Assembly (NCBI GenBank): GCA_011056635.1
Contig: DSEO01000375.1
Coordinates: 1 to 37,532 of the forward strand
Reading direction: 5' to 3'
From: Bacteroides sp.
Lineage (GTDB): Bacteria; Bacteroidota; Bacteroidia; Bacteroidales; GCA-2748055
Length of the DNA stretch: 37,532 nucleotides
In this document: piece by piece, positions 21,301 through 37,532 of the stretch
Numbering within the stretch: the first letter of the stretch is position 1
Layout of the letters: each line of letters begins with the position of its first letter
Made by a program: the position numbers and the translations under genes
Notes under the pieces: generated by a model
Database searches by the model: none
What the model was told of the DNA's origin: nothing
Seen by the model: only the letters and a program-made list of their open reading frames with translations

Positions 21301-21785
21301 GTGGATACGATAAAATCCTCTCCCACTCCGGATTCATGATTATCGGGCGCAAAAGCATCATGTCCCAGCGAAGCCGGAGCATTCCTCCGGAGCGCCTCCA
21401 CCCCGTTGATCCAGATCACAAAACCATCGTCATAATCCACGGTCAGGGTCATCTCCCTGACCTGGGAGGTATCCGTACATTCGAATGTGGACCTGAGGTA
21501 CAGGGTCGAATAGTTGTTCATCATATCCGTCAGCTCCACACCGCCTGTACCGTCCCCGTACCGGAAGGGTGCATTGCCCGAAGCCCAGCCCTGGTCATCG
21601 AATGCGGCGGTCATCCAGCCGGCGGACAGTCCGGCCGCATCTTTTCCTTTCAGGTATTGATAGGCGGAGTGATAGGTGAAATTCACCTGTGCTGATGCGG
21701 CTGCCGCCAAAAGCAGGATCAGGGGAAGCACAGAAAAGCGCTTCTTCCACCACTTATATTTGCCGTATGAATAATTTTCTGACAT
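18369..21785 (-). CDS. CotH kinase family protein, secreted, with lamin-tail and T9SS domains
   Basis: The product is 1138 residues. A signal peptide (about 16-32, ending ASAQ) is followed by a jelly-roll-like domain (about 40-195, with DYDDGFVIWINGVEALRRN). A chitobiase-type module (IIYTLDGSNPQQSP, about 230) comes next. The CotH kinase-like core (about 345-745) has RIRGGWSR, PKHAFRLFF, LYLNGMYWGLYQTQERSE and FYNHDAEHSLF; the acidic residues of the last may bind metal and nucleotide as in CotH. A second chitobiase-type unit lies near 818 and a lamin-tail domain at about 887-960. A type A T9SS sorting domain starts at YPNPTRDQ near 1063. CotH proteins are Fam20C-like protein kinases. A surface or extracellular kinase is inferred, though activity outside the cell would need ATP there. 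Confidence 0.88.
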   Translation of the reverse strand: MSENYSYGKYKWWKKRFSVLPLILLLAAAASAQVNFTYHSAYQYLKGKDAAGLSAGWMTAAFDDQGWASGNAPFRYGDGTGGVELTDMMNNYSTLYLRSTFECTDTSQVREMTLTVDYDDGFVIWINGVEALRRNAPASLGHDAFAPDNHESGVGEDFIVSTGGLNLVEGTNLVAVQGFNVSLTSTDFYFDLALYAEPSQPVIQDTAGISFSHPSGFYESPFNLVLTSPFSDADIIYTLDGSNPQQSPTAILAGSTCNILVDPESETWRPATPAFVIRASITRPGYKPSIPVGATYIFLDQVKEQTHPGGEWPSTNINSQIIDLGMDRRVVNDSRYADLMDDALLDIPSISVITDIKNLFDPASGIYVNADGHGLEWEKECSVELIQPDGTEGFNVNAGLRIRGGWSRHPDYPKHAFRLFFREIYGNDKLYFPLFGEEGAAQYDKIDLRTAQNYAWSNGFPENTFVREVFSRDSQRDMGQPYTRSRYYHLYLNGMYWGLYQTQERSEARYAETYFGGDEEDYDVVKVNMEDYVYTVEATDGKLDSWRQLWNLCGTGFASNTSYFALEGKDVNGDPVPGAEVLVDIDNLIDYMVLIFYTGNFDAPTSSFGQNKGCNNFYAIDNRNDRSTGFTFYNHDAEHSLFYYARSPGIGINEDRVNLAERTDYMKMVVNDFQRFHPQWLHHKLCANAEYRSRFADRATRHLEEGGALSAENVRKRVDSRVEEIDLAIIAESARWGDAKRPGSEPYTRNAEWMVEINRIRNLFIPNRTGIVIDQLLTAGLYRELDAPLVKVSGEKVTGTTFPVSSTLSVTVENPNAGGTIYYTLNGMDPRMVGNGALPEAIQSAAATSLQVSGSSILKTRIRYNGQWSALKEVSFLSQIEDYGMLKVTELHYHPPDWVREMDTIPGTDLEFIEFLNTGDRSVNLTGLNLDTAVHYRFPDNLQLLPEEFYVVASKPAAFFDFYGLIASGNYQGHFSNAGEEVLLVDAGGNPVIHFTYMDEAPWPLLADGYGFSLNAVEKYPSGDPNDPTYWTVSFETGGTPFAHNGPVNLEPLRATDQEGLLAYPNPTRDQVTLHLRSVPETSRLTVTIFNTTGYSVYRGTIDNNSQISLSSLGVGSGLYMIRVETEGIAGVARIVVL

Positions 21786-22176: not shown

Positions 22177-24429
22177 ATGAAGAAATCTTTGTGGCTTCTT
22201 CCGGTTGCTGTATGTGCTGCCGGGATACTGGGGATAACAGGATGTGACAAGCATCAGGACAGGTTTGAACCTCCTCCATGGCTGGGCGGATCGAGCATTG
22301 AGACACTGGAAGAAAGGGGGAATTATACCATCTTTCTCACGCTCATGGAGATGGCCAACTATACGGATCCCATCACCAAGCAGTTGTTCACGCTTTTTGT
22401 ACCGGATGATGACGCATTCGAAGCATATTTCCAATCGGCCGGGATCAATTCGGTGGAAGATTTGACGAAAGAGGAAGCGGTGCAGCTTTTCACCCTCCAT
22501 GTGCTGCGCAATCCCCGGTCCAGGTACTACCTGATCTACGAATATGTGTGGTCCGAATTCCAGGGCCCAAAGGGAGAGTATGCATCCCTCTACCACAGAA
22601 AGGAGGTTCCGAGTGAAAACACTTATAAAGAAACGGTCAGGTACAATCCGGGAATGCTGGGCAGGGAAGTGAACATCTATACAGACCATAAGCATGTGCC
22701 GCTTTTCTCAGCAGAATGGTTCGGAGATTACGGTGGAGCCCAGGATGGTTCCGACTACACCTTTATGTACCCGGGAAGTACCTGGGAACTGGGGTACCCG
22801 GACAACCTGAAAGGCCTGAACTGGCATAATGCCATGGTGATCCCCAATCCGGAAATACCCGATGAACTGGAAGTCAGGACCTCCAGCGGTTTCATCTATT
22901 TCCTGGACAGGGTGGTCCCCCCCATGCCCAGTATTGAAGAATACATGATCGCCCACCCGGAAAAGTACGGATTGTATTACGACCTGCTTCAACGCTTCGC
23001 CACCTATGGTAATTCCAGGGTGGATGAGCAAAGAAATGTGGAGTACAAGAAAGGATACGAACTTGTTTTCAACCTTGCGGAGGAAAGGGGTCCGTCCACC
23101 GGTACGCTCACGATCCCTGCACAGAACATGTGGACTGCATTCCTGCCCACCAACGAACAGTTGCAGGGTTACCTTGACAATACGATTTTCAAGTATTATT
23201 CTGCCATTGACAGTGTTCCGCGGGTCACGCTGTATTACATCCTGCAGACCCAGTTGTCCGGATCCCTCGTACTGCGTTCGAAACTCGAAACGAGTGGCTA
23301 TTTTAATGCGTTCGGGGATCCTACTGACCTTGGTCCCAATGATCTGATCTCCGGTTACATGTGCAGCAACGGGGTTATCTACCAGACAGACGCAGTGCTT
23401 GAGCCCAACGTTTTCACCACGGTGCCGGGAACCCTTTTCTTCGACAAGGACTATTCCACACTGCTTTTCGTGCTGAACGCGGCAAATATGCTTTCCACCG
23501 TTTCCAATCCCGATGCGGATGTAACGGTTTTTGCGGCCACGGATCAAGATATGGAGGAATACGGGATACGGTACAATGCCACCAGCGATGTGGTTGAGTT
23601 CAGGGGACCCGTCGACGGACAGTGGTCACCGATGAAAGAGACCGAACTGGTCATGTTCGCCCAGGACCAGATATATAAGGGCAGGCTGGAAGACCTGGCC
23701 GGAGCGGGCGGATATGCGGAAATGAGTTCCGGAAACCATATTTACTATACAGGCAACCAGGTGGCCGCCGGAGAGAACATGGTGACAGGTGAATTGGCCA
23801 CTGTACAGGAAATACTTGAAAATGAGCAAAATGGATTTCTTGTTAAGGTGGATCACCCGGTGGCATCCAGGCTTGAAATGGGGCAATTGCTCACCTGTTC
23901 ACCCATTGAACCCGACTGCATGCTGGCCGACCCCGAGTTCTCGGAGTTTGCAGACCTGCTGGTGAAGTTGAACCTGATGGACAACCGTTACAGGGATCCC
24001 ATTACCAAGGAAAATATCCCCAGGGTTAAGTTCCTGGCCGCCGCCAACTACTGGACCGCCTTCGTTCCGACCAATGATGCCCTGGCACAGGCCCGTGCGG
24101 AGGGGATCATTCCCAATGAATTTCCCACAACCACGAGTGGCAAGGATTCCATATCGAATTTTGTCATGTACCATTTCGTAAGGAATAATGTGATCTTCGA
24201 TGATGGCAAGCTGTCCGGAAATTTCACTACCAATTATTCCTACCCGGATACCATAGACAATGTGCCCCAGACGGTGTTCGCTCCCCTGATGATCAGCAAT
24301 GCACCCAATAATCTGACCCTTACGGATCGCACAGGTAACGTGGTCCATGTGAATCATGCAGACGCCGGAAAACTGGTGAGAAAGGGTGTGATGCACAAAA
24401 TCCACTCTGTATTAAGATATACAGAGTAA
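22177..24429 (+). CDS. Fasciclin (FAS1) lipoprotein with four FAS1-like modules
   Basis: The product is a 750-residue lipoprotein. The start at 22177 gives a compact signal (MKKSLWLLPV...) with lipobox LGITGC, Cys23; an ATG at 22156 would add seven residues. Four FAS1-like modules are seen: about 41-245 (TLFVPDDDAFEAY, with a long insertion), 264-414 (WTAFLPTNEQLQGY), 426-564 (VTVFAATDQDMEEYGI) and 587-748 (WTAFVPTNDALAQA, ending RKGVMHKIHSVLRY). FAS1 domains mediate adhesion and ligand or matrix binding. The protein is probably on the outer surface. It is the first gene of a tight cluster, 22 nt before SusC, so it may cap or present ligand to that transporter. That partnership is inference. 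Confidence 0.88.
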   Translation: MKKSLWLLPVAVCAAGILGITGCDKHQDRFEPPPWLGGSSIETLEERGNYTIFLTLMEMANYTDPITKQLFTLFVPDDDAFEAYFQSAGINSVEDLTKEEAVQLFTLHVLRNPRSRYYLIYEYVWSEFQGPKGEYASLYHRKEVPSENTYKETVRYNPGMLGREVNIYTDHKHVPLFSAEWFGDYGGAQDGSDYTFMYPGSTWELGYPDNLKGLNWHNAMVIPNPEIPDELEVRTSSGFIYFLDRVVPPMPSIEEYMIAHPEKYGLYYDLLQRFATYGNSRVDEQRNVEYKKGYELVFNLAEERGPSTGTLTIPAQNMWTAFLPTNEQLQGYLDNTIFKYYSAIDSVPRVTLYYILQTQLSGSLVLRSKLETSGYFNAFGDPTDLGPNDLISGYMCSNGVIYQTDAVLEPNVFTTVPGTLFFDKDYSTLLFVLNAANMLSTVSNPDADVTVFAATDQDMEEYGIRYNATSDVVEFRGPVDGQWSPMKETELVMFAQDQIYKGRLEDLAGAGGYAEMSSGNHIYYTGNQVAAGENMVTGELATVQEILENEQNGFLVKVDHPVASRLEMGQLLTCSPIEPDCMLADPEFSEFADLLVKLNLMDNRYRDPITKENIPRVKFLAAANYWTAFVPTNDALAQARAEGIIPNEFPTTTSGKDSISNFVMYHFVRNNVIFDDGKLSGNFTTNYSYPDTIDNVPQTVFAPLMISNAPNNLTLTDRTGNVVHVNHADAGKLVRKGVMHKIHSVLRYTE

Positions 24430-24451
24430 AACAAGACTAACCAAAACTACC

Positions 24452-27400
24452 ATGAAAAAAATCGTACTGTTAACTGGATTGCTCGTGTGCCTACTGTCCG
24501 CCATGAATCAGGTGCAGGGACAATCAGCGATTATCTCGGGAAGGATTGTCGACTCGCTGACCCGGGAAACACTGCCTTCTGTAAATATTGTGGAGATCGA
24601 CAAGAACGGAAGGTTTATCGGCGGAACGGTATCGGACCTGAACGGGAATTACGTATTCAAGGTTTCCAACGTGGACAACCCGGTCCAGGTTTCCTTCATC
24701 GGTTACCAGAAAGAAACTGTTTACGTAAGAGGCCGCTCGGAGATCAACTTCGACCTATCGCCTGAATCCATACAGATGGAAGAAGTGACGGTGGTGGGGG
24801 AGAAAATGGGTCATGACGGACTGACCAGCGTGAGGGACCGGGCCACTTCCGTGGCACGAATCGAGCTGTCGGGCATGAAATCCGTCATGTCCACCACGGT
24901 GGAAGATATGCTGCAGGGCCGGATCGGGAATGTGGATATCTCATCGGTGTCGGGTGACCCGGGAGCGGGACTGAATATCAGGATCCGGGGAACGGCATCC
25001 CTCAATGCAAGGAACCAGCCCCTCATTGTCATCAACGGCATCCCCTACGATGCCAATATTGACGAAAGCTTTGATTTTGCCAGTGCCGATATAGAAAAGT
25101 TCGGCAGCCTGATCGATGTGTCGCCGGAGGACATCGAGTCCATCGAGGTGCTGAAAGATGCGGCCTCCACCGCTGCCTGGGGATCCAGGGCATCCAACGG
25201 TGTGCTGATGATCAAAACCAAGCGGGGGATCAAATCGAAACCCATCTTTGAATATACCGCCAAACTGACATCGGCCTGGGAACCGGATCCCATCCCGATG
25301 CTGGACGGTGCGGGATATGCACGCCTGATCACGGAGGAACATTATAATGTCACCTACAATACATTCTACAGCGATGAGATTGCCTTTGATCCGGAATGGG
25401 AAGAGTACTACAATTATTCACAGAATACCAACTGGGTGAAGGAGATCACCAGGAGGGCCTTCACCCACCAGCATGATTTCTCGGTCCGTGGCGGGGGAGA
25501 GAAAACCAGGTACAACATGTCCATGGGCTTCTTTGACGAGGAGGGAACAACCATCGGCAATAACCTGAAGAAGCTCAACCTGCGCAGTTCGCTGGACTAC
25601 GATCTTTCGCGCAAGCTGCAGTTCAAAACGGATATCATGTATACCCGGTATGACCAGGAAAATACATATGATGTGGAGGATTATGAATATGGCGGCTGGA
25701 AATCCCTCCGGTCGGTGGCATACCGCAAGATGCCGAACCTGTCCATTTACGACAGGGACACGAGCAATGTCCACTACGGCGAATATTTCACACCCATTTC
25801 AACCCTCCAGGGTTCAGCCAGGGATGCCTACAACCCTGTGGCCTTTGCCAACCTGGGCGAGCAGCAGCGTTACAAGGACAATGCCAGGGCATTGTTCAGC
25901 GCCAGGTACTTCGTTACTCCACGGCTTATTTTTAATTCCACGGTCACCCTGGACATTTTTGACAACAAGATAGCCAAGTTCCTGCCCCACAAAGCGCTGG
26001 GGTATTATTACAGCAGTGACATCTCCAATCATGCGGTCAATGAATTTTCCAAAAAGAGCTCCATATTCACGTTCAACCAGTTGATCTACAGGCCAGAGCT
26101 GGGCATTGATCACGAACTTGTCTTCATGGGACAGTTCGATACGGAGGCCACCCAGTCCAGGTGGTACAAGACCGAATCGAGCCAGTCAGCCTCGCCTTTT
26201 CTGACAGAGCCTGTAAACGATGTGCACCTGACTTATTTCGGCTCCAGTTTCAGCGAATACCGGGCCATGGGTTTGTTTCTCACGGGAAGCTATATCTTCA
26301 GGGACAGATACAGCCTGATGCTGGGGGCCAAGTATGAGGGGAACTCCAAGTTCAGCAGGGAAAGCCGTTGGGGCCTGTTCCCCACTTTCTCGGTCTTCTG
26401 GCGGCTTTCGGAAGAGGCCATGCTCAGGGATGTGGCTTTCATCGACGATCTCAAACTCAGGTTCAGCTGGGGACAGAGCGGGAATTCACCTGCACAGAAT
26501 TACCTGTATTTCAATACCTATGAGGCCGGTTCGGGTATTTCCTACATGGATATGCAGGGTGTCCGGCCCACGGGTGTGGAGCTTACCAGCCTGAGATGGG
26601 AAACCATCGACCAGGTGAACCCTGGGATTTCATTTTATGGCCTGCAGGGCAGACTGAATATTGAAGTGGATTATTACAGGAAGAAAACCCTGAACCTTTA
26701 TCTCGAAAATTCAGGCATTCCCGAGCAAACCGGCTTTTCGAGCATCGACCGCAACGACGGAGAAATGGAAAACAGGGGATTTGAGTTCCTGATCGATTAT
26801 ACGGTGGTCAGAAGGCAGGATTTTCAGCTGAGTTTTAATATGAACCTGTCCAGGAACCAGAACCAGGTATTGCGGCTTCCGGAAAACTACAGCCTGGTAT
26901 ATGGCAATATGCTCGAGAACGGGAACTACAAGATCAGTGTAACACCGGGAGAACCGCTCGGAGGATTCTTCGGTTACGAATATGCAGGGGTCTATCTGTC
27001 AGATGATGACGCCATCGTCAGGGATGCCAACGGCGATCCGGTCTATGGCCTGAATATTGACAGTCCCCTCACCATGATCATGGGCGGCCCTTCCGGCTAT
27101 GTATTTGAAGGAGGTGATGCGAAATACGTGGACCAGAATTACGACGGTAAGATCGATGAGCTGGATCTTGTCTACCTGGGGGATCTCAATCCGGACCTGA
27201 TGGGCGGTGCCGGAATCAGGGTCCAGTACAAGAGCTTCATACTGAACACATTCCTGTTTTTCAAGCTGGGACAGGAGATCATCAATCAAACCCGCATGGA
27301 CACTGAAAAGATGTACAACTATGACAACCAGAGCCTGGCCACCAACTGGCGGTGGAGAAGGGAAGGAGATGAGACCGAAATACCCAGGGCGCTCTTCAAC

Positions 27401-27685
27401 GACGGCTACAACTGGCTGGGATCAGACCGTTTCGTGGAGGACGGGTCCTACCTGCGCCTGAAAACGGTTTCCCTGAGCTACATGGTCAGTCCGAACCTGC
27501 TCCAGAAGATCAGGGTGAATGAAATGCGGCTTTTTGCCACCGGGTATAACCTGTTTACGTGGACCAACTATTCCGGACAGGATCCGGATGTGGCTCCTCC
27601 CTCGAGGCCGGACGTGCTGCCGAAGGACTACAGTAAAACCCCGCCGAGCATGAGGCTCATGTTTGGAGCAACCATTACATTTTAA
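24452..27685 (+). CDS. SusC/RagA family TonB-linked outer-membrane transporter
   Basis: This 1077-residue protein is a canonical SusC. A signal peptide (about 1-23, QVQGQ) precedes a carboxypeptidase-D-like regulatory domain (about 26-102: SGRIVDSLTRETLPSVNIV). The TonB-box-like EEVTVVG lies at 110-116. The plug has NIRIRGTASLNARNQPLIVI and SPEDIESIEVLKDAAS, and a 22-strand barrel ends MFGATITF. It should import a large ligand across the outer membrane, driven by TonB, with the SusD encoded 17 nt downstream as its lid. Length and motifs are complete. No carbohydrate enzymes are nearby, so the ligand need not be a glycan. Confidence 0.96.
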   Translation: MKKIVLLTGLLVCLLSAMNQVQGQSAIISGRIVDSLTRETLPSVNIVEIDKNGRFIGGTVSDLNGNYVFKVSNVDNPVQVSFIGYQKETVYVRGRSEINFDLSPESIQMEEVTVVGEKMGHDGLTSVRDRATSVARIELSGMKSVMSTTVEDMLQGRIGNVDISSVSGDPGAGLNIRIRGTASLNARNQPLIVINGIPYDANIDESFDFASADIEKFGSLIDVSPEDIESIEVLKDAASTAAWGSRASNGVLMIKTKRGIKSKPIFEYTAKLTSAWEPDPIPMLDGAGYARLITEEHYNVTYNTFYSDEIAFDPEWEEYYNYSQNTNWVKEITRRAFTHQHDFSVRGGGEKTRYNMSMGFFDEEGTTIGNNLKKLNLRSSLDYDLSRKLQFKTDIMYTRYDQENTYDVEDYEYGGWKSLRSVAYRKMPNLSIYDRDTSNVHYGEYFTPISTLQGSARDAYNPVAFANLGEQQRYKDNARALFSARYFVTPRLIFNSTVTLDIFDNKIAKFLPHKALGYYYSSDISNHAVNEFSKKSSIFTFNQLIYRPELGIDHELVFMGQFDTEATQSRWYKTESSQSASPFLTEPVNDVHLTYFGSSFSEYRAMGLFLTGSYIFRDRYSLMLGAKYEGNSKFSRESRWGLFPTFSVFWRLSEEAMLRDVAFIDDLKLRFSWGQSGNSPAQNYLYFNTYEAGSGISYMDMQGVRPTGVELTSLRWETIDQVNPGISFYGLQGRLNIEVDYYRKKTLNLYLENSGIPEQTGFSSIDRNDGEMENRGFEFLIDYTVVRRQDFQLSFNMNLSRNQNQVLRLPENYSLVYGNMLENGNYKISVTPGEPLGGFFGYEYAGVYLSDDDAIVRDANGDPVYGLNIDSPLTMIMGGPSGYVFEGGDAKYVDQNYDGKIDELDLVYLGDLNPDLMGGAGIRVQYKSFILNTFLFFKLGQEIINQTRMDTEKMYNYDNQSLATNWRWRREGDETEIPRALFNDGYNWLGSDRFVEDGSYLRLKTVSLSYMVSPNLLQKIRVNEMRLFATGYNLFTWTNYSGQDPDVAPPSRPDVLPKDYSKTPPSMRLMFGATITF

Positions 27686-27702
27686 CACACAAACCGACTG
27701 TC

Positions 27703-29157
27703 ATGAAAAAACGCGATATGAAAAGGTCTTTAAGATTTGTCCTGCTGGCCGGTGTAATGACTTTTACGTCCTGTACCGACTGGCTGTCCATTGCCCCTGA
27801 GAATGACCTTATCAGGGAGAAATTCTGGACGAAGACCGCCGATGTGGAAGGAGCCCTGGCTGCTGCGTACGATGCCCTCCGCGAAGCAAGCCTGCAATCA
27901 CTGATATTCGGTGAGCTGCGGGCCGACCTGGTAGAATTTACGGGGACCAACTTCACGGATTACGCCAAGATTGCTGCCAGCAACATCAGTCCGACCAACG
28001 GTGTGATTTCGTGGAACAACTATTACACAGCCATCAATCTGGCGAATACGCTGATGCATTACGATGACGAAGTGTTCGAAAAAGACCAGACCTTTACGCC
28101 GGAACTGAAAGATGCCATTGAAGCGGAAGCCCGCTTTATCCGTTCAATGGCATTCTTTTACCTGGTACGCCTTTGGAAAGACGTGCCACTGGTGGTGGAA
28201 GCATCCGTTTCGGATACATCCAATCTATTTGTGGGGAAAAGCAGCGAAAAGGAGGTGCTGCACTTTATCATCAACGATCTCCTGGCTGCCAGGGATATGG
28301 CCTATTCCACAGAATTCAGCGGAACCGATTATTTCTACGGGCGTGCGAACAAATATTCCATCATGGCCCTGCTGGCCGATGTGTATCTGTGGGATCAGCA
28401 ATATGAAAAATGCATCCAGTACTGTGATGAAATAATCAATTCGGGACTTTACGGTCTGGAACCCACCGAAACCTTCTTCAATATTTACTATCCCGGCAAT
28501 TCCCCGGTGGAGAGCATCATAGAGATCCAGTATGATGATGATCTCGAAGGACAGGAGAATCCCATTTATTACAACATGATTTCCTTTTCGGGAGGAAACC
28601 AGGTAAACATGGTAGCTAAAAACATCAATATGTTCATGCTCAGGGAAGACCTCAGGATGTTCCAGGGAAAAGGAGCCGTCTGGAAATACCAGGGGAAAGA
28701 TGCGCTGGGGCTGATACCCAGAATCATCACCGAACGGGATGCAAACTGGATCCTTTACAGGTATGCAGACATCCTGCTGATGAAGGCTGAGGCATCCATC
28801 GAGCTGAACCGGTTCAAAGATGCCAATGAACTGATCGCAGAAACCCTGTTGCGTGCCGGTATGCCCTATGTGGAAGAATCCGACAAAGAGCTGCTGAGAC
28901 AGGCCCTTCTGGATGAAAGGGGAAGGGAATTCCTCTTTGAAGGGAAACGCTGGTTCGATCTGCTGCGCGCTGCCAAGCGGAACAATTTTGAAAACAAGCA
29001 GATCATTATCAATATGATCCTCTCGGGTGCTGACATCAAACAGCAGGCAGTTCTAAGAACCAGGGTGTATGATACCCTGAGTTATTATCTGCCCATACCG
29101 GAACATGAGCTGATATACAATCAGAACCTGAAACAAAATCCTTATTATGATCGGTAA
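27703..29157 (+). CDS. SusD/RagB family nutrient-binding lipoprotein
   Basis: The 484-residue product is the surface lipoprotein partner of the SusC upstream. It has a lipoprotein signal (VMTFTSC, relaxed lipobox), an early block ENDLIREKFWTKTADVEGAL, a helical TPR-like core including EARFIRSMAFFYLVRLWKDV and VYLWDQQYEKCIQYCDEII, and the family ending ERGREFLFEGKRWFDLLRAA with YYLPIPEHELIYNQN. An alternative start lies at 27718. It ends inside a possible upstream start of the next FAS1 gene. SusD proteins close over the SusC barrel to deliver ligand. Confidence 0.95.
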   Translation: MKKRDMKRSLRFVLLAGVMTFTSCTDWLSIAPENDLIREKFWTKTADVEGALAAAYDALREASLQSLIFGELRADLVEFTGTNFTDYAKIAASNISPTNGVISWNNYYTAINLANTLMHYDDEVFEKDQTFTPELKDAIEAEARFIRSMAFFYLVRLWKDVPLVVEASVSDTSNLFVGKSSEKEVLHFIINDLLAARDMAYSTEFSGTDYFYGRANKYSIMALLADVYLWDQQYEKCIQYCDEIINSGLYGLEPTETFFNIYYPGNSPVESIIEIQYDDDLEGQENPIYYNMISFSGGNQVNMVAKNINMFMLREDLRMFQGKGAVWKYQGKDALGLIPRIITERDANWILYRYADILLMKAEASIELNRFKDANELIAETLLRAGMPYVEESDKELLRQALLDERGREFLFEGKRWFDLLRAAKRNNFENKQIIINMILSGADIKQQAVLRTRVYDTLSYYLPIPEHELIYNQNLKQNPYYDR

Positions 29158-29179
29158 AAAAATTCAAACAGATAGACCC

Positions 29180-30667
29180 ATGAAAAATTCAGGCCGGCGA
29201 CTGCTCTCCATGGGCAGCCAATTAGTAGTGATTGCATTTGCCTTGCTGGTGTCAGGCTGCGACGAAGACCCGGTGCTGTGGGAAGTAGCATCCATGGACC
29301 AGGTCATTTCCGAATACATCGCCAGCAATGAGCAATTCTCGGAATTTGAAGGGATTCTGGAAACCACAGGTTTAACCAGCCTGCTGAGCGTACGGGGACC
29401 TTTCACCATGTTTCTGCCCACAGATGATGCCATGAAAGCATTTTACCAGGAGAAAGGCGTTTCATCCTATGAGGATTTTCCGGTGGAATACCTGAATGAT
29501 CTCGCACTCAATCACTTGGTGCCAAGCAAAATAGAAACGGGTGACTTTCAACTTGGAGCCATTCGTGACCTGAATGCTGTGGGAGATTACCTGGTCACCG
29601 AATTTGATGGTTCTGACATCATTGTCAACAAGCGCAGCCTGGTCATTAAAAGGAATATTTCAGCCGCGAACGGGGTGATCCACCTGCTGGATCGTGTGAT
29701 CGAACCCGTCACCATCAGCGTGTACGAGTATCTTGCGGCGAATCCTGCCTACTCCCTGTTCACGCAAGGCCTTGACCTGACCAATCTGAAGGACACCCTG
29801 AACCTGATTGAATTCCCCTATGGCAATAAAATGGCCCGTACCAGATTTACCGTCCTTGCCGTGGCCGATGCCACCTTCAATGCATACGGAATATCCACCG
29901 TTGACCAGATGATTGACTATTTTACAGATGCCCCTGACAGCATCACCTACCTGGAAAATGAGTTTTACAGGTATATGGAATACCATTGCCTCGGGGGAAC
30001 CTACTACCTCAATGAACTGGAAAGCCGGGTATATCCGATCCTTTCCTATGACAACAACGTGGACGTAAGGATCTCGGATGATTATAAGCTGAATTTAAAG
30101 AGCGAAACGCAGGAATATACCGGTTTTGTTATCGAGCAGTCCAACAACCCTGCTAAAAACGGTACGGTGCATACCATCAACGACCTGCTTCCCGTTTTCC
30201 AGCCCGAACCTACCACCATCGTGCATGAAACGACCGACTATTTCGACATGAAACAGGGAGACTATTTCGGCAAATATTACATGAGATGGTTTGACGGGCA
30301 GAACACCTTTGAATATATCAAGTGGGAAGGCGACTACCTTTTGTATTATTTCAAGGATCACGATACAGGAAAGCTGGAGAATGACGATTGCCTGAGCATG
30401 AACGGTTGGTGGTGGGTACAGATCACCACTCCCAAGATCATGAAAGGCAAGTATAACATGACCGCCAACCTATGGGCCGGCCAGACGAACTATGCCGTGT
30501 ATGTGGACGGGGTGAATACCGCACTGATCAAATCCACTGACCCAGCGGAATCGACCAGCTGGGGCGAGTTTGACTGGGACAAGACCGAAAGGCACGTAAT
30601 CAAAGTGGTAACGAAAAGTCCCGGGTTGCTTTTCTGGGATACAGTGATTCTGACACCCATCCAATAA
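29180..30667 (+). CDS. Fasciclin (FAS1) lipoprotein with C-terminal beta-sandwich-like domain
   Basis: The product is 495 residues from the ATG at 29180, which starts a proper lipoprotein signal (lipobox LLVSGC). An ATG at 29147 would overlap the SusD gene by 11 nt and lengthen the signal. FAS1 module one (about 35-185) has FTMFLPTDDAMKAFYQEK and ANGVIHLLDRVIEP; module two (about 190-345) has FTVLAVADATFNAYGIS and NGTVHTINDLLPVF. The last 145 residues are different: aromatic and beta rich (WWWVQITTPKIMKGKYNMT, YAVYVDGVN), resembling a jelly-roll ligand-binding fold. From memory this could be DUF5108, but I cannot verify that. It sits between the two SusCD pairs. Surface location and ligand binding are inferred. 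Confidence 0.85.
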   Translation: MKNSGRRLLSMGSQLVVIAFALLVSGCDEDPVLWEVASMDQVISEYIASNEQFSEFEGILETTGLTSLLSVRGPFTMFLPTDDAMKAFYQEKGVSSYEDFPVEYLNDLALNHLVPSKIETGDFQLGAIRDLNAVGDYLVTEFDGSDIIVNKRSLVIKRNISAANGVIHLLDRVIEPVTISVYEYLAANPAYSLFTQGLDLTNLKDTLNLIEFPYGNKMARTRFTVLAVADATFNAYGISTVDQMIDYFTDAPDSITYLENEFYRYMEYHCLGGTYYLNELESRVYPILSYDNNVDVRISDDYKLNLKSETQEYTGFVIEQSNNPAKNGTVHTINDLLPVFQPEPTTIVHETTDYFDMKQGDYFGKYYMRWFDGQNTFEYIKWEGDYLLYYFKDHDTGKLENDDCLSMNGWWWVQITTPKIMKGKYNMTANLWAGQTNYAVYVDGVNTALIKSTDPAESTSWGEFDWDKTERHVIKVVTKSPGLLFWDTVILTPIQ

Positions 30668-30703
30668 ATGAATCCCTGTGCAATCATTTAATATGACACT
30701 GAA

Positions 30704-33700
30704 ATGACAAAAAGACAATTATTTTCCACATGTGCATTCCTTGTTGCCCTGCTCTTTACCGGTGCGTGCACCCTTCCCCTGGCAGCGCAGACAACTGGAA
30801 CAGAAGTTACGGGGGTGGTCACAGAGGCGGGGACCGGGCTTCCATTGAGCCAGGTAGCCATTTCGGTTTCCTCCACCGGTGCTTCCTCGGCAACAAATGA
30901 ACAGGGAGCTTTTACCATCACAGTCCCCGATCTGCAGGCAGAGATCATTGTGAACCTGCCGGGTTACAACCTGCGCTATATTTTTCTGAACGGAAGAGAT
31001 TACGTGAAAATATCGCTGGTTCCCGACCGGTTCAGTTCCATGGACAATTCCTTCAACACGCCAACAGGCCCCAGGTTGAGGAAAGACGCGGTTTATCCGG
31101 TAACTTCCTTTGTACAGGGTGATATGGCACTGGAAAAGACCACCTCATTTGACCAGGCCCTCCAGGGAAGGGTCCCGGGAATGTCGGTCATCGATCAATC
31201 CGGAATGCCCGGACACAGGACATTCATGAACCTGCGCGGATTCTCCTCCTTGTTCGCCAATACCGAGCCTTTGCTGTTCATTGACGGAATGATCCATGAT
31301 TACTCCTACGCACAGCACAGCCTCATGGAAGGTTTCGCACTGAATCCCCTCGATGTGGTAGATATCGAGGATATTTCAGATGTCACGATTCTGCGGGGCG
31401 GCGTTTCCCACCTGGGCGCTGTGGGTTCCCACGGTGTGATCAACCTGAATACCGAGCAAAAGGCTGAAGCGAGTACGGTGATCAAATTCTCCGCCTACGG
31501 CGGGATCTCCATGGCCCCTGATAAGCTGCCGCTGCTCAATGCTTCGCAATTCAGAAACTACTTTGAGGAGGTGCTGGTTACCCAGGGTTATGATGCAGGC
31601 CAGATCAACACCATGTACCCCTGGCTGCACGGGGATGCTTCGTCGGAGGATTACTACAAGTACAATAACAGCACGGACTGGCAGGAAGAAATATACAGGC
31701 CTGCAGCCGTTTCGAAATTTTACTTTTTCCTGAAGGGGGGGGATGATATCGCCACCTACAACGTATCCGTCGGAAACCTCATGCAGGAAGGTATATACGA
31801 TAATTCAAGATATAACCGGTTCAACCTGCGAATCAACGGGAAGGTCAATATCACCGATAAATTTTCGGTCACGCCGAATGCCAAACTCTCCCTGGCCGAC
31901 AGCGAGCTGGCGAACCAGGGCCCGAGTGCGTGGAAAAACCCGGTTGCCTCAGCCCTGCTGAAGTCTCCCCTCATGACCCCCATCGCCAGGGATGAAACCA
32001 CAGGCGAAACCCTGACCTACCTGGATGATGTGGGAGTTTTCGGTGTAAGCAACCCTGTGGCGATTATCAACAATGCCCTGGGCGTGAACAGGAATTATCA
32101 TTTCCTGGCATCCATCAGGGCAGATTACAGGTTCAACGATCACTTCAACCTCTCCACCCTCTTCGGCATCAATTTCAACAATACCCGGGAAAACATCTTC
32201 CTGCCGGATCTGGGTATCGTGCAGGTGGATTCGGCATACAACAGTCCCGGCGATTTTGTTTATGAATTCAGGTCCACCCAGAACCACACCATGCTGACCT
32301 ACACCAACAGCACCACCTCCGGACACAACATTTCAGTCAACGGGGGATTCCGGTACATGGATAACAGCTATAAATACAACCGCAGCATCGATCTGAATAC
32401 GCCATCGGATGACTTTAAAAGCCTGGGTGACGGGTCTCAGTACAGCTTCCTGCAATCCACAACGGGAGATAACAGGGGACTGGCCTGGATGTCATTTTTC
32501 GGGATCGTTGATTATAATTTCAGGGACCGGTACCTGGTCACCGCCAACCTCTCCTATGACGGAAATTCCGCCACAAACGAATCCCACAGGTATAATTTTT
32601 ATCCCTCCCTGGGCGCCGCCTGGCGACTTTCCTCGGAAGGCTTCCTGAACCAGGTGAGCTGGCTGGAAGACTTGAAAATCAGAGGGTCCTACTCGGTGAC
32701 AGGCAACATGTTCAGTACGGTGTACGATTATTCCAAATTGTATTACACCAACCGCAGGCTGAACGGGGACGGGGTGCTGATCAGGGAGGCAATTCCCAAT
32801 GAAGACCTGGAGCTTGAAAAGAAACATACCATCAATGCGGGTCTGGATCTGTCCATCCTGGGCCAGTCGCTGAACCTGCATGCAGACGTATATCAATCCA
32901 ACGTGAACAACCTGATCGTTCAGCAGGAACTACCTTCCTCCTTCGGGTTTACGCATTACTACGACAACGGGGGCAAGCTGGCGGTTACGGGGATGGAGAT
33001 TGCTGCGGACGGACGTATCCGGTCAGGAGGTTTTGTATGGACCCTCGGCGCATCCGTGGGAAAAGCCGCCACCGAGATCACCAGCCTGGATTTCCTGAAC
33101 CCGGAAACAGAATACATCATCACATCCATTAAGGGAGCACAGCTGATCACTTCTGAAGGGAACCCGGTGAATGCCTATTACGGGTACAAGACCGACGGTC
33201 TCATTTCCGAATCAGAGGCAGGATCGGTAACCGGACCCAAAGGAGTGCCCATGCAGGCCGGAGATGTAAAATATGTGGATGTGGATCAAAACAACGTCAT
33301 TAACGAGGATGACAAGATGATCATCGGTGACCCGAACCCGGACCTTTTCGGGGGGATCCACACGGCGTTATCCTATGCGAATTTTGAGCTGTCGGCCCTT
33401 TTTTACTATTCAATGGGGAACGATGTATACAATTACATGAGGTACCGGACAGAGTCCATGGATTCGTATGGCAACCAGTCTACCGCGGTGCTGGACAGAT
33501 GGACACCTTCCAACACCAGCGCGGACCTGCCCAGGGTCAGTTACGGGGATCCCACCGGAAATACCGTATTTTCGGACCGCTGGATCGAGGACGGCTCCTA
33601 CCTCCGGCTGGAGCGGATAACCCTGAGTTATTTCCTGCCGGACATCGCGGGCCTCACCAAGGGAGTCACACTTTACGTTACGGCGACCAATCTGCTCACC

Positions 33701-33826
33701 CTCACCAATTACACGGGATATGATCCGGAGTTCATCTATTTGAACAGTCCGTTTTACATGGGAGTGGATTACGGGATGATGCCTCAGTCCAGGTCCTTCA
33801 TAGCCGGATTAAAACTGAACTTATAA
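30704..33826 (+). CDS. SusC/RagA family outer-membrane transporter, atypical plug
   Basis: The product is 1040 residues. A signal peptide (ending LPLAAQ, about residue 28) precedes a carboxypeptidase-D-like domain (TGVVTEAGTGLPLSQVAISV). The plug has FMNLRGFSSLFANTEPLLFI and LDVVDIEDISDVTILRGG, and the barrel ends FIAGLKLNL. The order is that of SusC, but three features are unusual. No EEVVVVG-type TonB box follows the first domain; instead a variable stretch runs to TSFVQGDMALEK. The usual IEVLKDASA-IYGSRAANG block reads VTILRGGVSHLGAVGSHG. The plug also has a longer insertion around MIHDYSYAQHSLMEG. It precedes its SusD by 18 nt. It may be a divergent or paralogous transporter serving the same operon. 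Confidence 0.9.
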   Translation: MTKRQLFSTCAFLVALLFTGACTLPLAAQTTGTEVTGVVTEAGTGLPLSQVAISVSSTGASSATNEQGAFTITVPDLQAEIIVNLPGYNLRYIFLNGRDYVKISLVPDRFSSMDNSFNTPTGPRLRKDAVYPVTSFVQGDMALEKTTSFDQALQGRVPGMSVIDQSGMPGHRTFMNLRGFSSLFANTEPLLFIDGMIHDYSYAQHSLMEGFALNPLDVVDIEDISDVTILRGGVSHLGAVGSHGVINLNTEQKAEASTVIKFSAYGGISMAPDKLPLLNASQFRNYFEEVLVTQGYDAGQINTMYPWLHGDASSEDYYKYNNSTDWQEEIYRPAAVSKFYFFLKGGDDIATYNVSVGNLMQEGIYDNSRYNRFNLRINGKVNITDKFSVTPNAKLSLADSELANQGPSAWKNPVASALLKSPLMTPIARDETTGETLTYLDDVGVFGVSNPVAIINNALGVNRNYHFLASIRADYRFNDHFNLSTLFGINFNNTRENIFLPDLGIVQVDSAYNSPGDFVYEFRSTQNHTMLTYTNSTTSGHNISVNGGFRYMDNSYKYNRSIDLNTPSDDFKSLGDGSQYSFLQSTTGDNRGLAWMSFFGIVDYNFRDRYLVTANLSYDGNSATNESHRYNFYPSLGAAWRLSSEGFLNQVSWLEDLKIRGSYSVTGNMFSTVYDYSKLYYTNRRLNGDGVLIREAIPNEDLELEKKHTINAGLDLSILGQSLNLHADVYQSNVNNLIVQQELPSSFGFTHYYDNGGKLAVTGMEIAADGRIRSGGFVWTLGASVGKAATEITSLDFLNPETEYIITSIKGAQLITSEGNPVNAYYGYKTDGLISESEAGSVTGPKGVPMQAGDVKYVDVDQNNVINEDDKMIIGDPNPDLFGGIHTALSYANFELSALFYYSMGNDVYNYMRYRTESMDSYGNQSTAVLDRWTPSNTSADLPRVSYGDPTGNTVFSDRWIEDGSYLRLERITLSYFLPDIAGLTKGVTLYVTATNLLTLTNYTGYDPEFIYLNSPFYMGVDYGMMPQSRSFIAGLKLNL

Positions 33827-33844
33827 CACTGAAAATACACTGAA

Positions 33845-35389
33845 ATGAGAAAGAGATCACGATTCAATCCATATCTGCTGGTTATCCCCGGACTGATGCT
33901 GGTCATCAGCCTGGGATGCAGCGAAGATTTCTTCAACAAGACAGCCGGGGACAGGATCACGCCGGATCTGCATTACAAGAATTCGACCGATGCTGACATA
34001 TCTGCCAGAGGAGCCATCTCCTTTCTCCAGGAAGCGATGCCGAGACTGGTCGTGCTGGACGGTCTCCGGTCTGATATCATGGACGTCACGGCCAATGCCG
34101 ATGCGTACCTGACAGAGATCAACCGCCAGGTATTTTCAACCGGGAACCCGTATACGGATCCGGCTGACTTCTACAAAGTCATTATCAATTTGAACGAAGT
34201 GCTCGCCAATATCGACCGGGTGGCTGAAAGTGACCGGGAATTTGATGAATATATTCTCTATTATTTCAGGGGAGGCCTGATCACCATGAGAGCGTGGACC
34301 TACCTGACCCTGGTCCGCCTTTACGACCAGGCGGCTTATGTGGATGATAACCTCACTTCTCTTCCGGAGAGCCTGGAGCAGAACATCCTGACCAGGGATG
34401 TGATGATCGACACGCTGATCAATCAGATCACCCCCTATGTGTTCGATGCTTCGGTGGGAACCGAACGCGAGGAACTGAAGATGCCCTTTTACGTGAATAC
34501 GAAAGCACTGCTCGGTGAACTTTACCTGGAAAAGAATGATTACGCCAATGCCGTCACATACCTGAAACTGGCATGTGAAAGCTATCTCAATACATCTTCC
34601 ATGCTCAAGGTCGACAACACCTATAAGGACGATGCGTGGGCCACGATCTTCCTGAATGCCGAGACCGCCGAAGTTGAGAATATCGCGGTTGTGCCTTTCT
34701 CTTCGGTGGAAGACCAGTACAATCCGCTGGCAAATCTGTTCGGATATTCGCTCCAGTACAAGATAAAGCCGTCTGATGTCCTGGTGGAATCATTCATGTC
34801 CCAGGTCCCGGCCGCAGGTCCGGAAGGAGATCCGTACAGGGGACTGGGAGTGACTTTCGGCGTGGACTCCGCAGCCATGGGATCCGGCGATTATACCTAT
34901 TTCACAAAGTACGAGATCGACAAGAGCGACCCGTTCAGTTCGGACATTATCATTTCCAGGGCAGCAGACATCCACCTGATGCTTGCGGAAGCATACAACC
35001 GTATGGGCGATGAGGAATCACAGGAATTTGCACTGATGCTGCTGAACGAGGGGGTGAACAAGGTGAATCCCAAGCCCGCTCCTTTTGCAAGATGGAACAG
35101 GAACATCGGTATCAGGGGCAGGGTTTACCTGACCTCGCAGGAGGTCCCCGAAGGTCTGGCAGGAACGGAAAGGATCCGTTACATCGAAGACCTCATTATC
35201 CAGGAAAGGGCCCTGGAACTGGCCTGTGAGGGGAAAAGGTGGTTTGACCTGGTACGTATTGCGGAACGCAGGAATGAGCCTGAATACCTGGCCGACAGAG
35301 TGGCTGCCAAATTCGAGGGAACACCCATGTATAACGAGATCCGCGCCAGACTGATGGATCCGGCAAACTGGTACCTGCCGTTTGAATAA
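33845..35389 (+). CDS. SusD/RagB family lipoprotein, second pair
   Basis: The 514-residue lipoprotein (lipobox VISLGC) is the likely partner of the atypical SusC. It keeps SusD-type features: an early SEDFFNKTAGDRITPDLHYK block, LTLVRLYDQAAYVDD, YVNTKALLGELYLEKNDYANAV and the late ERALELACEGKRWFDLVRIAER, ending NWYLPFE. It differs strongly from the first SusD of the cluster, so the two pairs did not arise by recent duplication. The stop is 6 nt before the DUF362 gene. A surface-exposed ligand-binding role is inferred from the family. Confidence 0.92.
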   Translation: MRKRSRFNPYLLVIPGLMLVISLGCSEDFFNKTAGDRITPDLHYKNSTDADISARGAISFLQEAMPRLVVLDGLRSDIMDVTANADAYLTEINRQVFSTGNPYTDPADFYKVIINLNEVLANIDRVAESDREFDEYILYYFRGGLITMRAWTYLTLVRLYDQAAYVDDNLTSLPESLEQNILTRDVMIDTLINQITPYVFDASVGTEREELKMPFYVNTKALLGELYLEKNDYANAVTYLKLACESYLNTSSMLKVDNTYKDDAWATIFLNAETAEVENIAVVPFSSVEDQYNPLANLFGYSLQYKIKPSDVLVESFMSQVPAAGPEGDPYRGLGVTFGVDSAAMGSGDYTYFTKYEIDKSDPFSSDIIISRAADIHLMLAEAYNRMGDEESQEFALMLLNEGVNKVNPKPAPFARWNRNIGIRGRVYLTSQEVPEGLAGTERIRYIEDLIIQERALELACEGKRWFDLVRIAERRNEPEYLADRVAAKFEGTPMYNEIRARLMDPANWYLPFE

Positions 35390-35395
35390 TCAGGA

Positions 35396-37285
35396 ATGAG
35401 GAAAAAACCGTTTTCAAGGTTCAATTTTACATCTTCGAAATCTTACCTGATCATTACAGGCGCGCTGGCCACCCTGTGGTTCCTGATCCGGGTCATACCC
35501 AAACCCAGCCGTGCCAGGTACCCATGCATGCAGGTGGCCGCACCCATCATGTCCTCATTCATCATCTACCTGCTGGGGATCAGTGCATCCTGGCTTTCCT
35601 TTAAAAAATTCAGGCAATCGCTGCACAGGTCCAGGTATCTGGCAGGTTCCCTGTTTTTGATGCTATCCATCGCTGCATTTGCCTTCATTTTCATGTGGGA
35701 CAGCAGGGAAACCATTGCTGGGGCTGTTATTCCAGGTTACAATACCTACCCCGTGGAATCCAACGCACCCGTCGGACAAGCACGGGGGCTCTATCCCGGC
35801 AGGGTGGTATGGGTGCAGGACCACAGGGCAACCAATGAGAACTATGTCCCGGTAGACGGCAGCGAGGACTTCTGGTACAGCAACGACAATGCCGATGAAA
35901 GCGTGATCGGCGACATGCTTGCCCTGTCCATCACCCTGTATGCCGGAACAGAAAACCTTGCCGATGCCTGGGATTCCATTTTCACCGCCTTCAACAGGTC
36001 CCATGACCGGGGTGAGGTGGGCTATACACCGGGTGAAAAGATCGCCTTTAAGATCAACCTGACCAACCAGAGTGCCAGCTACCGGGAACGGCCCTCCAGG
36101 ATGGATGCCACACCCCAGCTGCTCAATGCAGTCCTGGACCAGCTGGTGAACGTGGTGGGAGTGGCCCAGGCGGACATGATCCTGGGCGATCCCTACCGTG
36201 ATTTCAGGCAGGAATACAGGGACCAGGTCATGGGCAGGTTCCCGGATGTCTGTTACGTGGACGGTAAAGGACTTTACGGAGTGGACCAGACCGTCCCCTC
36301 ATCGGAGGAAGTGCTGGTATTCAGCGACAAACGCTACAGATCCACCCTGCCGCAGCATTACCTGGATGCAACCTATCTCATTAATATCCCCTGTCTGAAG
36401 ACCCATAACGAAGGGGGCATCACACTCATTTCCAAGAACCACCAGGGATCATTCCTGGAAAAAGGCGACGATCCCAAAACCCAGTTTGCCATTGACATGC
36501 ATTACAGTCTGCCGGGAAACAGCAGCGGAACGGGAAAATACAGGCATACTGTGGATTACATGGGACACGGAGAGACTGGGGGCAAAGGCCTGATCTATAT
36601 TATCGACGGGATCTGGGGAGGTGAAAGCTGGGAAGGATGGATCAAAAAATTCAAATCAGATCCTTTCGGCAATGATTACCCCAGTTCCATCCTGGTGGGA
36701 CAGGATCCCGTGGCCCTGGAGTCTGTCTGCTTCGATATCCTTTTCCAGGAATACGTGGTTGATCCCACCAAAATCAATTACCCCATCCGGATGAAAACTG
36801 AAATTGCCGATTACCTGTTACAATGTGCCAGCAGCGACTTCTGGCCGGAAGGCATTGAATATGATCCGGAAGGCGACGGGACCCCCATGGGCAGTTTGGG
36901 GGTTTTCGAACACTGGAATAATCCAACGGACAGGCAGTACTCCAGGAACCTTGGAACGGGTGACGGCATTGAACTGGTATACCGCAATGCAAGCATCATC
37001 GGGATCCCTTCCGAACCCTGCCCCACCCTTCATGCAGCCGCCCCCAACCCGTTTTCAGCCCATACGGTCTTCAACCGTCCTGAGCAGGTCTCCCGGAATG
37101 CAATCCTTGAGATCTATAACATGGAAGGGCGCCTGATCCGTACGCTCAGCTTTGCCGGTTCGGACAGGGTCATCTGGTACGGCACCGACTCCGGCGGTCA
37201 TGACGTTCCCGCCGGAACCTATCTCTACCTCCTGCACGACAACCGCGTTCATACCGGCTTCTCAGGGAAAGTCATCCGGCAGTAA
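35396..37285 (+). CDS. DUF362 protein with N-terminal membrane segments and FlgD/T9SS-like C-terminus
   Basis: The product is 629 residues. The first 105 residues carry three hydrophobic segments (about 17-34, 49-65 and 82-100) with PCMQVAAPIMSSF between the first two. A DUF362 region follows (about 190-490), with YLINIPCLKTHN near 326-337, GITLISKNHQGSF, DGIWGGESW and LVGQDPVALESVCFD. No ferredoxin-type CxxCxxC cluster is present, although DUF362 proteins often have one. Residues about 548-629 form a FlgD-like Ig/T9SS type sorting domain: APNPFSAHTVF, NAILEIYNMEGRLIRTL and GHDVPAGTYLYLL. It is the last gene of the FAS1-SusCD cluster. Three membrane segments together with a secretion signal at the far end are odd. 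Function unknown. Confidence 0.85.
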   Translation: MRKKPFSRFNFTSSKSYLIITGALATLWFLIRVIPKPSRARYPCMQVAAPIMSSFIIYLLGISASWLSFKKFRQSLHRSRYLAGSLFLMLSIAAFAFIFMWDSRETIAGAVIPGYNTYPVESNAPVGQARGLYPGRVVWVQDHRATNENYVPVDGSEDFWYSNDNADESVIGDMLALSITLYAGTENLADAWDSIFTAFNRSHDRGEVGYTPGEKIAFKINLTNQSASYRERPSRMDATPQLLNAVLDQLVNVVGVAQADMILGDPYRDFRQEYRDQVMGRFPDVCYVDGKGLYGVDQTVPSSEEVLVFSDKRYRSTLPQHYLDATYLINIPCLKTHNEGGITLISKNHQGSFLEKGDDPKTQFAIDMHYSLPGNSSGTGKYRHTVDYMGHGETGGKGLIYIIDGIWGGESWEGWIKKFKSDPFGNDYPSSILVGQDPVALESVCFDILFQEYVVDPTKINYPIRMKTEIADYLLQCASSDFWPEGIEYDPEGDGTPMGSLGVFEHWNNPTDRQYSRNLGTGDGIELVYRNASIIGIPSEPCPTLHAAAPNPFSAHTVFNRPEQVSRNAILEIYNMEGRLIRTLSFAGSDRVIWYGTDSGGHDVPAGTYLYLLHDNRVHTGFSGKVIRQ

Positions 37286-37299
37286 GGCTCCTCCCAGCC

Positions 37300-37346
37300 T
37301 TGTTCCCCGGCGGGATCTCCGGTGAGCTGCCTAAAGGATTTTCGCA
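37300..37346 (+). repeat. Direct repeat copy 1 of an intergenic element
   Basis: A 47-nt unit, TTGTTCCCCGGCGG...TTTTCGCA, begins 15 nt after the DUF362 stop. It recurs at 37487-37532 with about five differences (one deletion, four substitutions). Start-to-start distance is 187 nt. Confidence 0.75.
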
Positions 37347-37355
37347 GAAAAGAAT

Positions 37356-37390
37356 TTCAACAGCGGGCGGAGATGCCGCCGGCTGTCGAA
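37356..37390. repeat. Strong stem-loop between the direct repeats
   Basis: TTCAACAGCGGGCGG pairs with CCGCCGGCTGTCGAA around the loop agatg: a 15-bp stem with two mismatches and a 5-nt loop. No T-run follows on the plus strand, so it is not a standard terminator. Its centre CGGAGATGCCGCCGG is also close to the reverse complement of the CCGGCGG-ATCTCCGG core of the flanking repeats. Confidence 0.6.
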
Positions 37391-37422
37391 CCCTGGTGAG
37401 CGTGCCTTCCGCAGTATACGGT

Positions 37423-37465
37423 ATCGCTGCTGAACCTGCTGCTTCGCACCAGCTTAGGCAGCGAT
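37423..37465. repeat. Second stem-loop between the direct repeats
   Basis: ATCGCTGC (37423-37430) is perfectly complementary to GCAGCGAT (37458-37465). Inside, GCTG (37438-37441) pairs with CAGC (37450-37453). This makes a long hairpin with an internal loop. TTAGGCAGC in its right side is the reverse complement of GCTGCCTAA in both flanking repeats, so alternative pairings exist. Confidence 0.5.
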
Positions 37466-37486
37466 GACCGCATCTGCTTCAGGCTG

Positions 37487-37532
37487 TTGTTCCCGGCGGT
37501 ATCTCCGGTAAGCTGCCTAAATGATCTTCGCA
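37487..37532 (+). repeat. Direct repeat copy 2, reaching the window end
   Basis: This 46-nt unit matches copy 1 at 37300-37346 at about 42 positions and ends TCTTCGCA at the last base of the window. It is either the start of a second 187-nt tandem unit or the right-hand flank of a small element. The following sequence is not visible. Confidence 0.7.

Follow-up and report, generated by a model that had tools for sequence, protein, structure and literature searches.

An ordered FAS1-SusCD-FAS1-SusCD module as a probable capture-and-import core of polysaccharide utilization loci in Bacteroidota

The usual description of SusCD systems assigns a single pair to each glycan, with accessories that vary. 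In the window (the whole 37,532-nucleotide stretch of DNA analysed), seven co-directional genes at 22177–37285 follow the order FAS1a-SusC1-SusD1-FAS1b-SusC2-SusD2-DUF362, and the question is what a unit with two SusCD pairs interleaved with FAS1 lipoproteins captures and imports. All seven genes claimed in an earlier note on this DNA are found on one strand at the coordinates given there (Table 1), the Pfam/NCBIfam domain scores of each exceed the cut-off, and the adjacent SusC/SusD pair that marks a polysaccharide utilization locus (PUL) occurs twice. The gaps of 6–36 nt that the note reported hold if FAS1b starts at its second Met (29180), most likely the true start, which is preferred because M12 is invariant; a start at 29147 is also possible. 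For FAS1a, the start at 22177 is preferred, as it yields a signal peptide and a lipobox Cys. The Bacteroidetes promoter pattern TTTG-N17..23-TANNTTTG has zero matches in the window. The cluster is probably the capture-and-import core of a PUL in the outer membrane, with the FAS1 lipoproteins as glycan binders or scaffold.

Table 1. Features of the cluster and its borders in the window
Feature	Position	Strand	Evidence and assignment
CotH-LTD-T9SS protein	18369..21785	-	PF08757 83 bits, Por_Secre_tail 40 bits; divergent upstream neighbour
FAS1a	22177..24429	+	PF02469 78.2 bits; lipobox ..GITGCDKHQD; lipoprotein, modelled as elongated FAS1 tandem
SusC1	24452..27685	+	TIGR04056 687 bits; SusC/RagA TonB-dependent transporter, module-specific clade
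SusD1	27703..29157	+	PF07980 108 bits, PF14322 58 bits; lipobox SCTDWLS; SusD lid lipoprotein
FAS1b	29180..30667	+	PF02469 90.5 bits; lipoprotein, modelled as two FAS1 domains and a C-terminal CBM-like beta-sandwich
SusC2	30704..33826	+	TIGR04056 600 bits; second SusC/RagA transporter, distinct clade in tree
SusD2	33845..35389	+	PF07980 52 bits; divergent SusD lipoprotein
DUF362 protein	35396..37285	+	PF04015 40.2 bits; three N-terminal hydrophobic segments, weak T9SS-like tail
Contig-end repeat, 186-bp period	37286..37532	+	about 50 matches in own genome; dovetails with contig C133

A contig search with SusC1 as the query gives 43 complete, distinct modules, the window included, 15 of them of the window type and 28 with an additional FAS1c. 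The plan is fixed as FAS1a-SusC1-SusD1-FAS1b-[FAS1c]-SusC2-SusD2, the first six genes of the window forming a strictly ordered unit, and the intergenic gaps across the 43 modules are mostly below 60 nt. The carriers belong to Prolixibacteraceae and to two or more further families of the class, genomes with several modules are frequent, and FAS1a identity between clades is 21–27%. Distance matrices of the components correlate (r 0.93–0.98, values reached by 0 of 999 permutations), and these correlations show co-inheritance, not physical contact. The earlier note had predicted one operon with its gene order kept in relatives and with FAS1 lipoproteins dedicated to the two transporters. The six-gene order in 43 loci bears out both the kept order and a conserved operon-like unit, and the dedicated partnership is supported within the window's genome, where eight of the nine FAS1 genes sit in three such modules. 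Chance neighbours were rejected as an explanation of the cluster, as was a cluster peculiar to the window's genome.

The absence of degradative enzymes, which the note had taken as a property of the system, is not supported. On the window's own contig (C11), neither a degradative enzyme near the module nor a glycan-responsive regulator (HTCS, anti-sigma, SARP) was identified. That contig stops at 37532, 247 bp past the DUF362 stop codon, the last of the contig, so that the downstream side was invisible when the note was made; the 186-bp-period repeat at the contig end breaks the assembly. Positions 1–124 of C133, a contig of the same genome, dovetail with the last 124 bp of the window contig with 1 mismatch. 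C133 encodes CBM9-T9SS, TPR-GDSL and GH5-CBM6/35-T9SS proteins, in the same order as downstream of DUF362 in a congener. A single contig of genome G012 (C15) carries DUF362-CBM9-TPR/GDSL-GH5 in the order and orientation of C133, and the module contig of G012 overlaps C15 within the DUF362 gene (181 bp, 95.6%). Overlap and synteny with G012 thus place C133 probably just downstream of DUF362; the C11–C133 junction is probable, not proven, because the repeat has about 50 matches and the overlap carries one mismatch. That the cluster looks enzyme-free probably reflects no more than where the contig ends.

Next to sister modules lie genes for GH5, GH115, GH88, GH2, sulfatase, esterase and rhamnose catabolism as well as hybrid two-component regulators, the latter at L010, L065, L069, L087 and further modules. 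Among the 15 window-type modules, 6 have a GH5 homolog of the C133 enzyme beside them; in other families, GH115 and GH2 adjoin L095/L101, GH88 adjoins L096, and rhamnulokinase-like and L-rhamnose isomerase-like genes adjoin L098. A raw tally of 93 flanking genes, made without a background set, comprises 17 T9SS tails, 8 CBM6, 7 GH5, 4 CBM35 and 3 CBM9, together with 5–6 genes with hybrid two-component regulator domains and 2 each with GDSL, GH2 and GH115_C. A six- or seven-gene block that keeps its order over deep divergence, with several copies per genome beside different enzymes, suggests a modular capture device reused for different polysaccharides.

The seventh gene encodes a protein with a DUF362 domain (PF04015 score above the gathering score of 24 bits), TM segments and the motif RVIPKPsRAxYPC, the latter two conserved across its family. 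Its N-terminus has three conserved hydrophobic segments where a cleavable Sec signal peptide would show one, and a sequence search against solved structures returned zero relatives. The earlier description of this protein as DUF362/T9SS-like stands for the DUF362 domain; the tail stays under every curated cut-off for a T9SS C-terminal sorting domain (Por_Secre_tail 18.4 vs 23; FlgD_ig 20.8 vs 27; CHU_C 19.9 vs 27). A paralog in the same genome (C90) has the architecture DUF362-CBM9-T9SS, with a T9SS domain that passes the cut-off, and so resembles the DUF362-CBM9 proteins of lignocellulose-fed microcosms (PMC5742341), whereas the window protein has no CBM9 and a separate CBM9-T9SS gene probably comes next, on C133. 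The window, G012 and G016 are the only cases in which DUF362 directly follows SusD2, at a gap of 6–12 nt; in the other complete modules examined this slot holds different genes, often for a T9SS-tailed protein, or none. DUF362 is an addition specific to one clade, not the integral member of the module that the note had made of it.

Both FAS1 proteins belong to the FAS1 family, with PF02469 above the gathering score and the FAS1 fold in their models. FAS1a (AF2, pLDDT 86) models as an elongated chain of FAS1 domains, and its best Foldseek matches are periostin and TGFBIp (1e-23, whole chain aligned). FAS1b (pLDDT 81) models as two FAS1 domains followed by a CBM35-like beta-sandwich at residues ~352–506, numbered from the 29147 reading. 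The FAS1 half again has TGFBIp and periostin as top fold matches; these share the tandem FAS1 architecture but are animal extracellular-matrix proteins with no transporter link. The C-terminal domain matches MiXBM (Z 13.0), Xyn30D CBM35 (10.7), GH26-CBM35 (10.4) and CBM86 (10.3), and contains the conserved aromatics W393, Y397, Y400, Y401, W421, W422, Y436 and W497. The CBM-like assignment is by fold match only (Z 10–13), to a fold that is a common one, and a Pfam-type profile search matched no CBM family in FAS1b. The lipoprotein signal of FAS1b has the lipobox SGCDEDP, and 42 of 43 FAS1b proteins have a lipobox-like site. FAS1 by itself is no proof of a glycan ligand, because in other organisms FAS1 domains bind proteins, carotenoids or cells. 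The ligand had been left open between protein matrix, glycan, metal complex and cell contact; the CBM-like fold and the flanking enzymes point to a glycan.

SusC1 and SusC2 form two clades in the tree, each separate from the 16 other SusCs of the window's genome. The solved chain nearest to SusC1 in sequence is 8aa4_A, the SusC of the dextran utilisome, and RagA is also among the SusC matches. In the mechanism that we propose, FAS1b, joined by FAS1c in the longer form, would capture a polysaccharide of plant type outside the cell, at its surface, via its predicted CBM-like domain, and FAS1a would serve as a rod-like scaffold or an additional binder. The polymer would be cleaved or held by secreted enzymes, which in this genome are probably the GH5-CBM6/35-T9SS protein of C133 together with the CBM9 and DUF362 proteins, the last as an accessory of the window's clade that probably also acts on plant-type glycans. 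Both SusCD pairs would then import oligosaccharides, either side by side or in one joint complex like the Bacteroides utilisomes. A stronger version, in which SusC1D1-SusC2D2 is an obligate heteromeric importer held and fed by the FAS1 lipoproteins, and FAS1-CBM proteins add a class to the known surface glycan-binding proteins, is conceivable but doubtful; if true, the joint unit would be a type of outer-membrane importer new to description.

It is quite improbable that the FAS1 proteins are chiefly cell-surface or cell-cell adhesins, merely co-expressed with ordinary SusCD transporters. FAS1 is a classical adhesion domain, and a bacterial FAS1 transcript has been interpreted in that sense (PMC10199937); the fixed interleaving in 43 loci would be unexpected for independent adhesins, and the location of eight of the genome's nine FAS1 genes inside SusCD modules also speaks against this reading. 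We also regard as unlikely a RagAB-like import of peptides or protein fragments, in which FAS1 would bind a protein matrix in the manner of TGFBIp and periostin. The closeness of the FAS1 parts to those two proteins, the RagA match and an M64 peptidase gene beside L090 agree with it, but this is the sole peptidase named in the examined flanks, where GH, CBM, sulfatase and sugar-catabolic genes are numerous, and FAS1b carries the CBM-like domain.

A system that transports a metal complex, a cofactor or a lipid and has no partner enzyme is very unlikely: no enzyme was identified near the module on the contig itself and DUF362 is frequently described alongside iron-sulfur proteins (PMC5742341), but related loci have enzymes and carbohydrate-type sensors, the DUF362 paralog is fused to CBM9, and pectinesterase, GH106 and GH127 genes adjoin DUF362 homologs. 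We give equally little credence to the earlier view of a stand-alone seven-gene system that includes DUF362 and lacks degradative enzymes. The tight SusD2-DUF362 spacing in three genomes favours it; it is opposed by the DUF362-free slot of all other complete modules examined, by G020 and G037, where the DUF362 homolog (59–63%) lies on a separate contig, and by the GH5 enzyme placed downstream through C133 and C15.

A PUL capture-and-import core invites comparison with known systems. Like Sus-type PULs of Bacteroidota, the module has SusCD pairs and surface lipoproteins, and its sister loci have linked GHs and hybrid two-component sensors; it differs in its two distinct SusCD pairs interleaved with FAS1 lipoproteins, with constant order and varying enzymes. 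In B. thetaiotaomicron, the utilisomes for levan and dextran (PMC7618045, PDB 8AA0-8AA4) likewise join SusC and SusD to additional lipoproteins on the surface, an SGBP among them. A four-component utilisome contains a single kind of SusCD pair with one SGBP and one lipoprotein GH, whereas the gene module, a candidate for such a complex, encodes two SusCD pairs and two or three FAS1 lipoproteins in a unit with no lipoprotein GH. In a cellulose/hemicellulose-like PUL of Gramella portivictoriae (PMC4891872), Fig. 6 draws a FAS1 gene with GH5, GH9 and GH26, a possible parallel; the section of text on it contains no FAS1 analysis and mentions no FAS1-SusCD-FAS1-SusCD unit. A full-text literature search, with subscription papers outside its scope, found no description of the FAS1-SusCD module, and its novelty is provisional; among its results, FAS1 appears only in that figure's legend and in a guess at adhesion (PMC10199937). 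Many bacterial 'fasciclin domain' lipoproteins, elsewhere taken as adhesion proteins, gain a candidate function from the module.

Upstream, the divergent CotH-LTD-T9SS gene is a neighbour outside the operon. Homologs of it lie near two other modules, L061 and L112.

The module FAS1a-SusC1-SusD1-FAS1b-[FAS1c]-SusC2-SusD2, carried by the window in a version without FAS1c, is probably the transport core of a polysaccharide utilization locus (PUL), one that combines FAS1-type binding proteins with a linked pair of transporters. The seven genes listed in the earlier note, with DUF362 last, are all present at the positions it gave, and with FAS1b starting at its probable start codon (see table) all intergenic gaps measure 6–36 nt. 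The window makes up an entire contig (C11 of the window genome G000, 37,532 bp), which ends 247 bp past the last stop codon of the cluster. Eight of the nine FAS1 genes in this genome lie inside three modules (contigs C11, C35, and C1), and the remaining one, a FAS1b that stands alone, is on contig C79, where locus L011 holds dispersed copies of two components of the locus (FAS1b and the CBM9-T9SS gene). The same three modules hold 6 of the 23 SusC genes above the TIGR04056 cut-off, a count that includes fragments.

Features of the window and of related loci (L numbers, regions read around FAS1/SusC matches)
Feature	Position	Remark
FAS1a, best start	window:22177	lipoprotein signal begins there
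FAS1b, probable start	window:29180	M12 (twelfth residue) is the invariant start in family alignments
Cytochrome c552 (NrfA-type nitrite reductase)	window:211-1794	opposite contig end
CotH kinase-LTD-T9SS protein	window:18369-21785; L061:2428-5829; L112:1331-4726	recurrent near modules
DUF362, three hydrophobic segments	window:35396-35720	also in family members
Tandem repeat, 186-bp period	window:37286-37532	many genomic matches near contig ends
Lone FAS1b paralog	L011:7251-10957 (G000:C79)	51% identical; divergent from CBM9-T9SS gene
DUF6057 membrane protein	L119:4083-7492; L121; L127; L111; L120	recurrent beside window-type modules; often paired with PD40 propeller protein

With FAS1a and FAS1b as queries against 41 relatives, dozens of pairs were found at fixed spacing, and the gene order was the same throughout the loci read. 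Named records assign relatives of the window to the Prolixibacteraceae. Once duplicates were removed, 43 modules were complete; FAS1c is present in 28 of them and absent from 15. A search of 395 evenly drawn Bacteroidota genomes found full-length FAS1a in seven, not counting the window genome, and these belong to two other families of the class; all eight modules read there keep the order and include FAS1c. A ninth locus (L100, genome G309) is divergent, lacks FAS1c, and has a second SusD that scores as SusD1-like; with a sulfatase, BNR (sialidase-like) proteins and an N-acetylneuraminate epimerase-like protein as its neighbours, it is possibly a sialoglycan variant. Correlations between the distance matrices of the six components are 0.93–0.98. 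In a tree that includes 16 further SusCs of the window genome, SusC1 and SusC2 each make up a clade of their own, separate from those 16. On this evidence the module is old and inherited as a block. The module of L109, labelled as a Chitinophaga pinensis MAG, clusters within Prolixibacteraceae, and the record is probably mislabelled.

Confident AlphaFold2 models built from homologs (pLDDT 86 for FAS1a, 81 for FAS1b) match periostin and TGFBIp. For FAS1a the aligned columns cover the entire chain, though it does not superpose as one rigid body; for FAS1b the match covers residues 49–350. FAS1b residues 352–506 match carbohydrate-binding modules, best the xanthan-binding MiXBM (Z 13.0, rmsd 2.2 Å over 119), followed by the CBM35 of Xyn30D (10.7), GH26-CBM35 (10.4) and xylan-binding CBM86 (10.3). 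The fold is a common one, and Bacillus Cry protein domains that share it reach scores of about 10 as well; by itself it is therefore no proof of glycan binding. Aromatic residues of this domain are kept within the clade.

Among 93 genes flanking modules, T9SS tails (17), CBM6 (8), GH5 (7) and hybrid two-component regulator domains (5–6) were found, along with CBM35, CBM9, GH115_C, GH2, GDSL and ROK. In the window genome, the C35 module has a sulfatase and hybrid regulator upstream, and the C1 module adjoins a GH5-CBM6 gene closest to endoglucanases; elsewhere the neighbours are GH115 and GH2 (L095/L101), GH88 (L096), and rhamnulokinase-like and L-rhamnose isomerase-like genes (L098). Neighbours of this kind are features of PULs.

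No degradative enzyme was found within the window, as the earlier note had said of the cluster. A GH5-CBM6/35-T9SS gene adjoins 6 of the 15 window-type modules, and in the relative G020 SusD2 is followed by a CBM9-T9SS gene. Contig C133 of the window genome carries homologs of both, at 53% for the GH5 gene and 71% for the CBM9-T9SS gene. C133 opens with 124 bp that differ by a single mismatch from the final 124 bp of the window. This overlap is weak on its own, because it lies in a repeat of 186-bp period (about 50 matches genome-wide) that probably breaks the assembly. In the congener G012, a single contig (C15) runs from the DUF362 end through CBM9-T9SS, TPR-GDSL and GH5-CBM6, ordered and oriented as on C133, and overlaps the module contig inside DUF362 (181 bp, 95.6%). 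From homologs, overlap and synteny together, C133 very probably follows the window, which would put a GH5 enzyme in the locus, about 5 kb beyond DUF362.

We found no published account of a FAS1-SusCD module; one paper shows a FAS1 gene as part of a cellulose/hemicellulose-like PUL, and the accompanying section does not analyse it (PMC4891872). Utilisomes contain one kind of SusCD pair (PMC7618045), whereas the window module has two linked transporters. The PUL transport core is the known part; the combination of FAS1-type binding proteins with a linked pair of transporters is, as far as the literature searched goes, new. The analysis shows how the module is built and that it is conserved; its ligand, complex formation and co-transcription we infer.

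Among the loci read, DUF362 sits next to SusD2 in just three, those of the window, G012 and the relative G016. In these genomes the family has three conserved N-terminal hydrophobic segments and an RVIPKPsRAxYPC motif, and its longer members add CBM9 and a T9SS tail. Neighbours of its homologs include pectinesterase, GH106, GH127 and sulfatase genes, and in a study of metagenomes DUF362 was consistently linked to CBM9 (PMC5742341). DUF362 is probably an auxiliary protein that acts on plant-type glycans. Three hydrophobic segments alongside T9SS-like tails are odd for a secreted protein.
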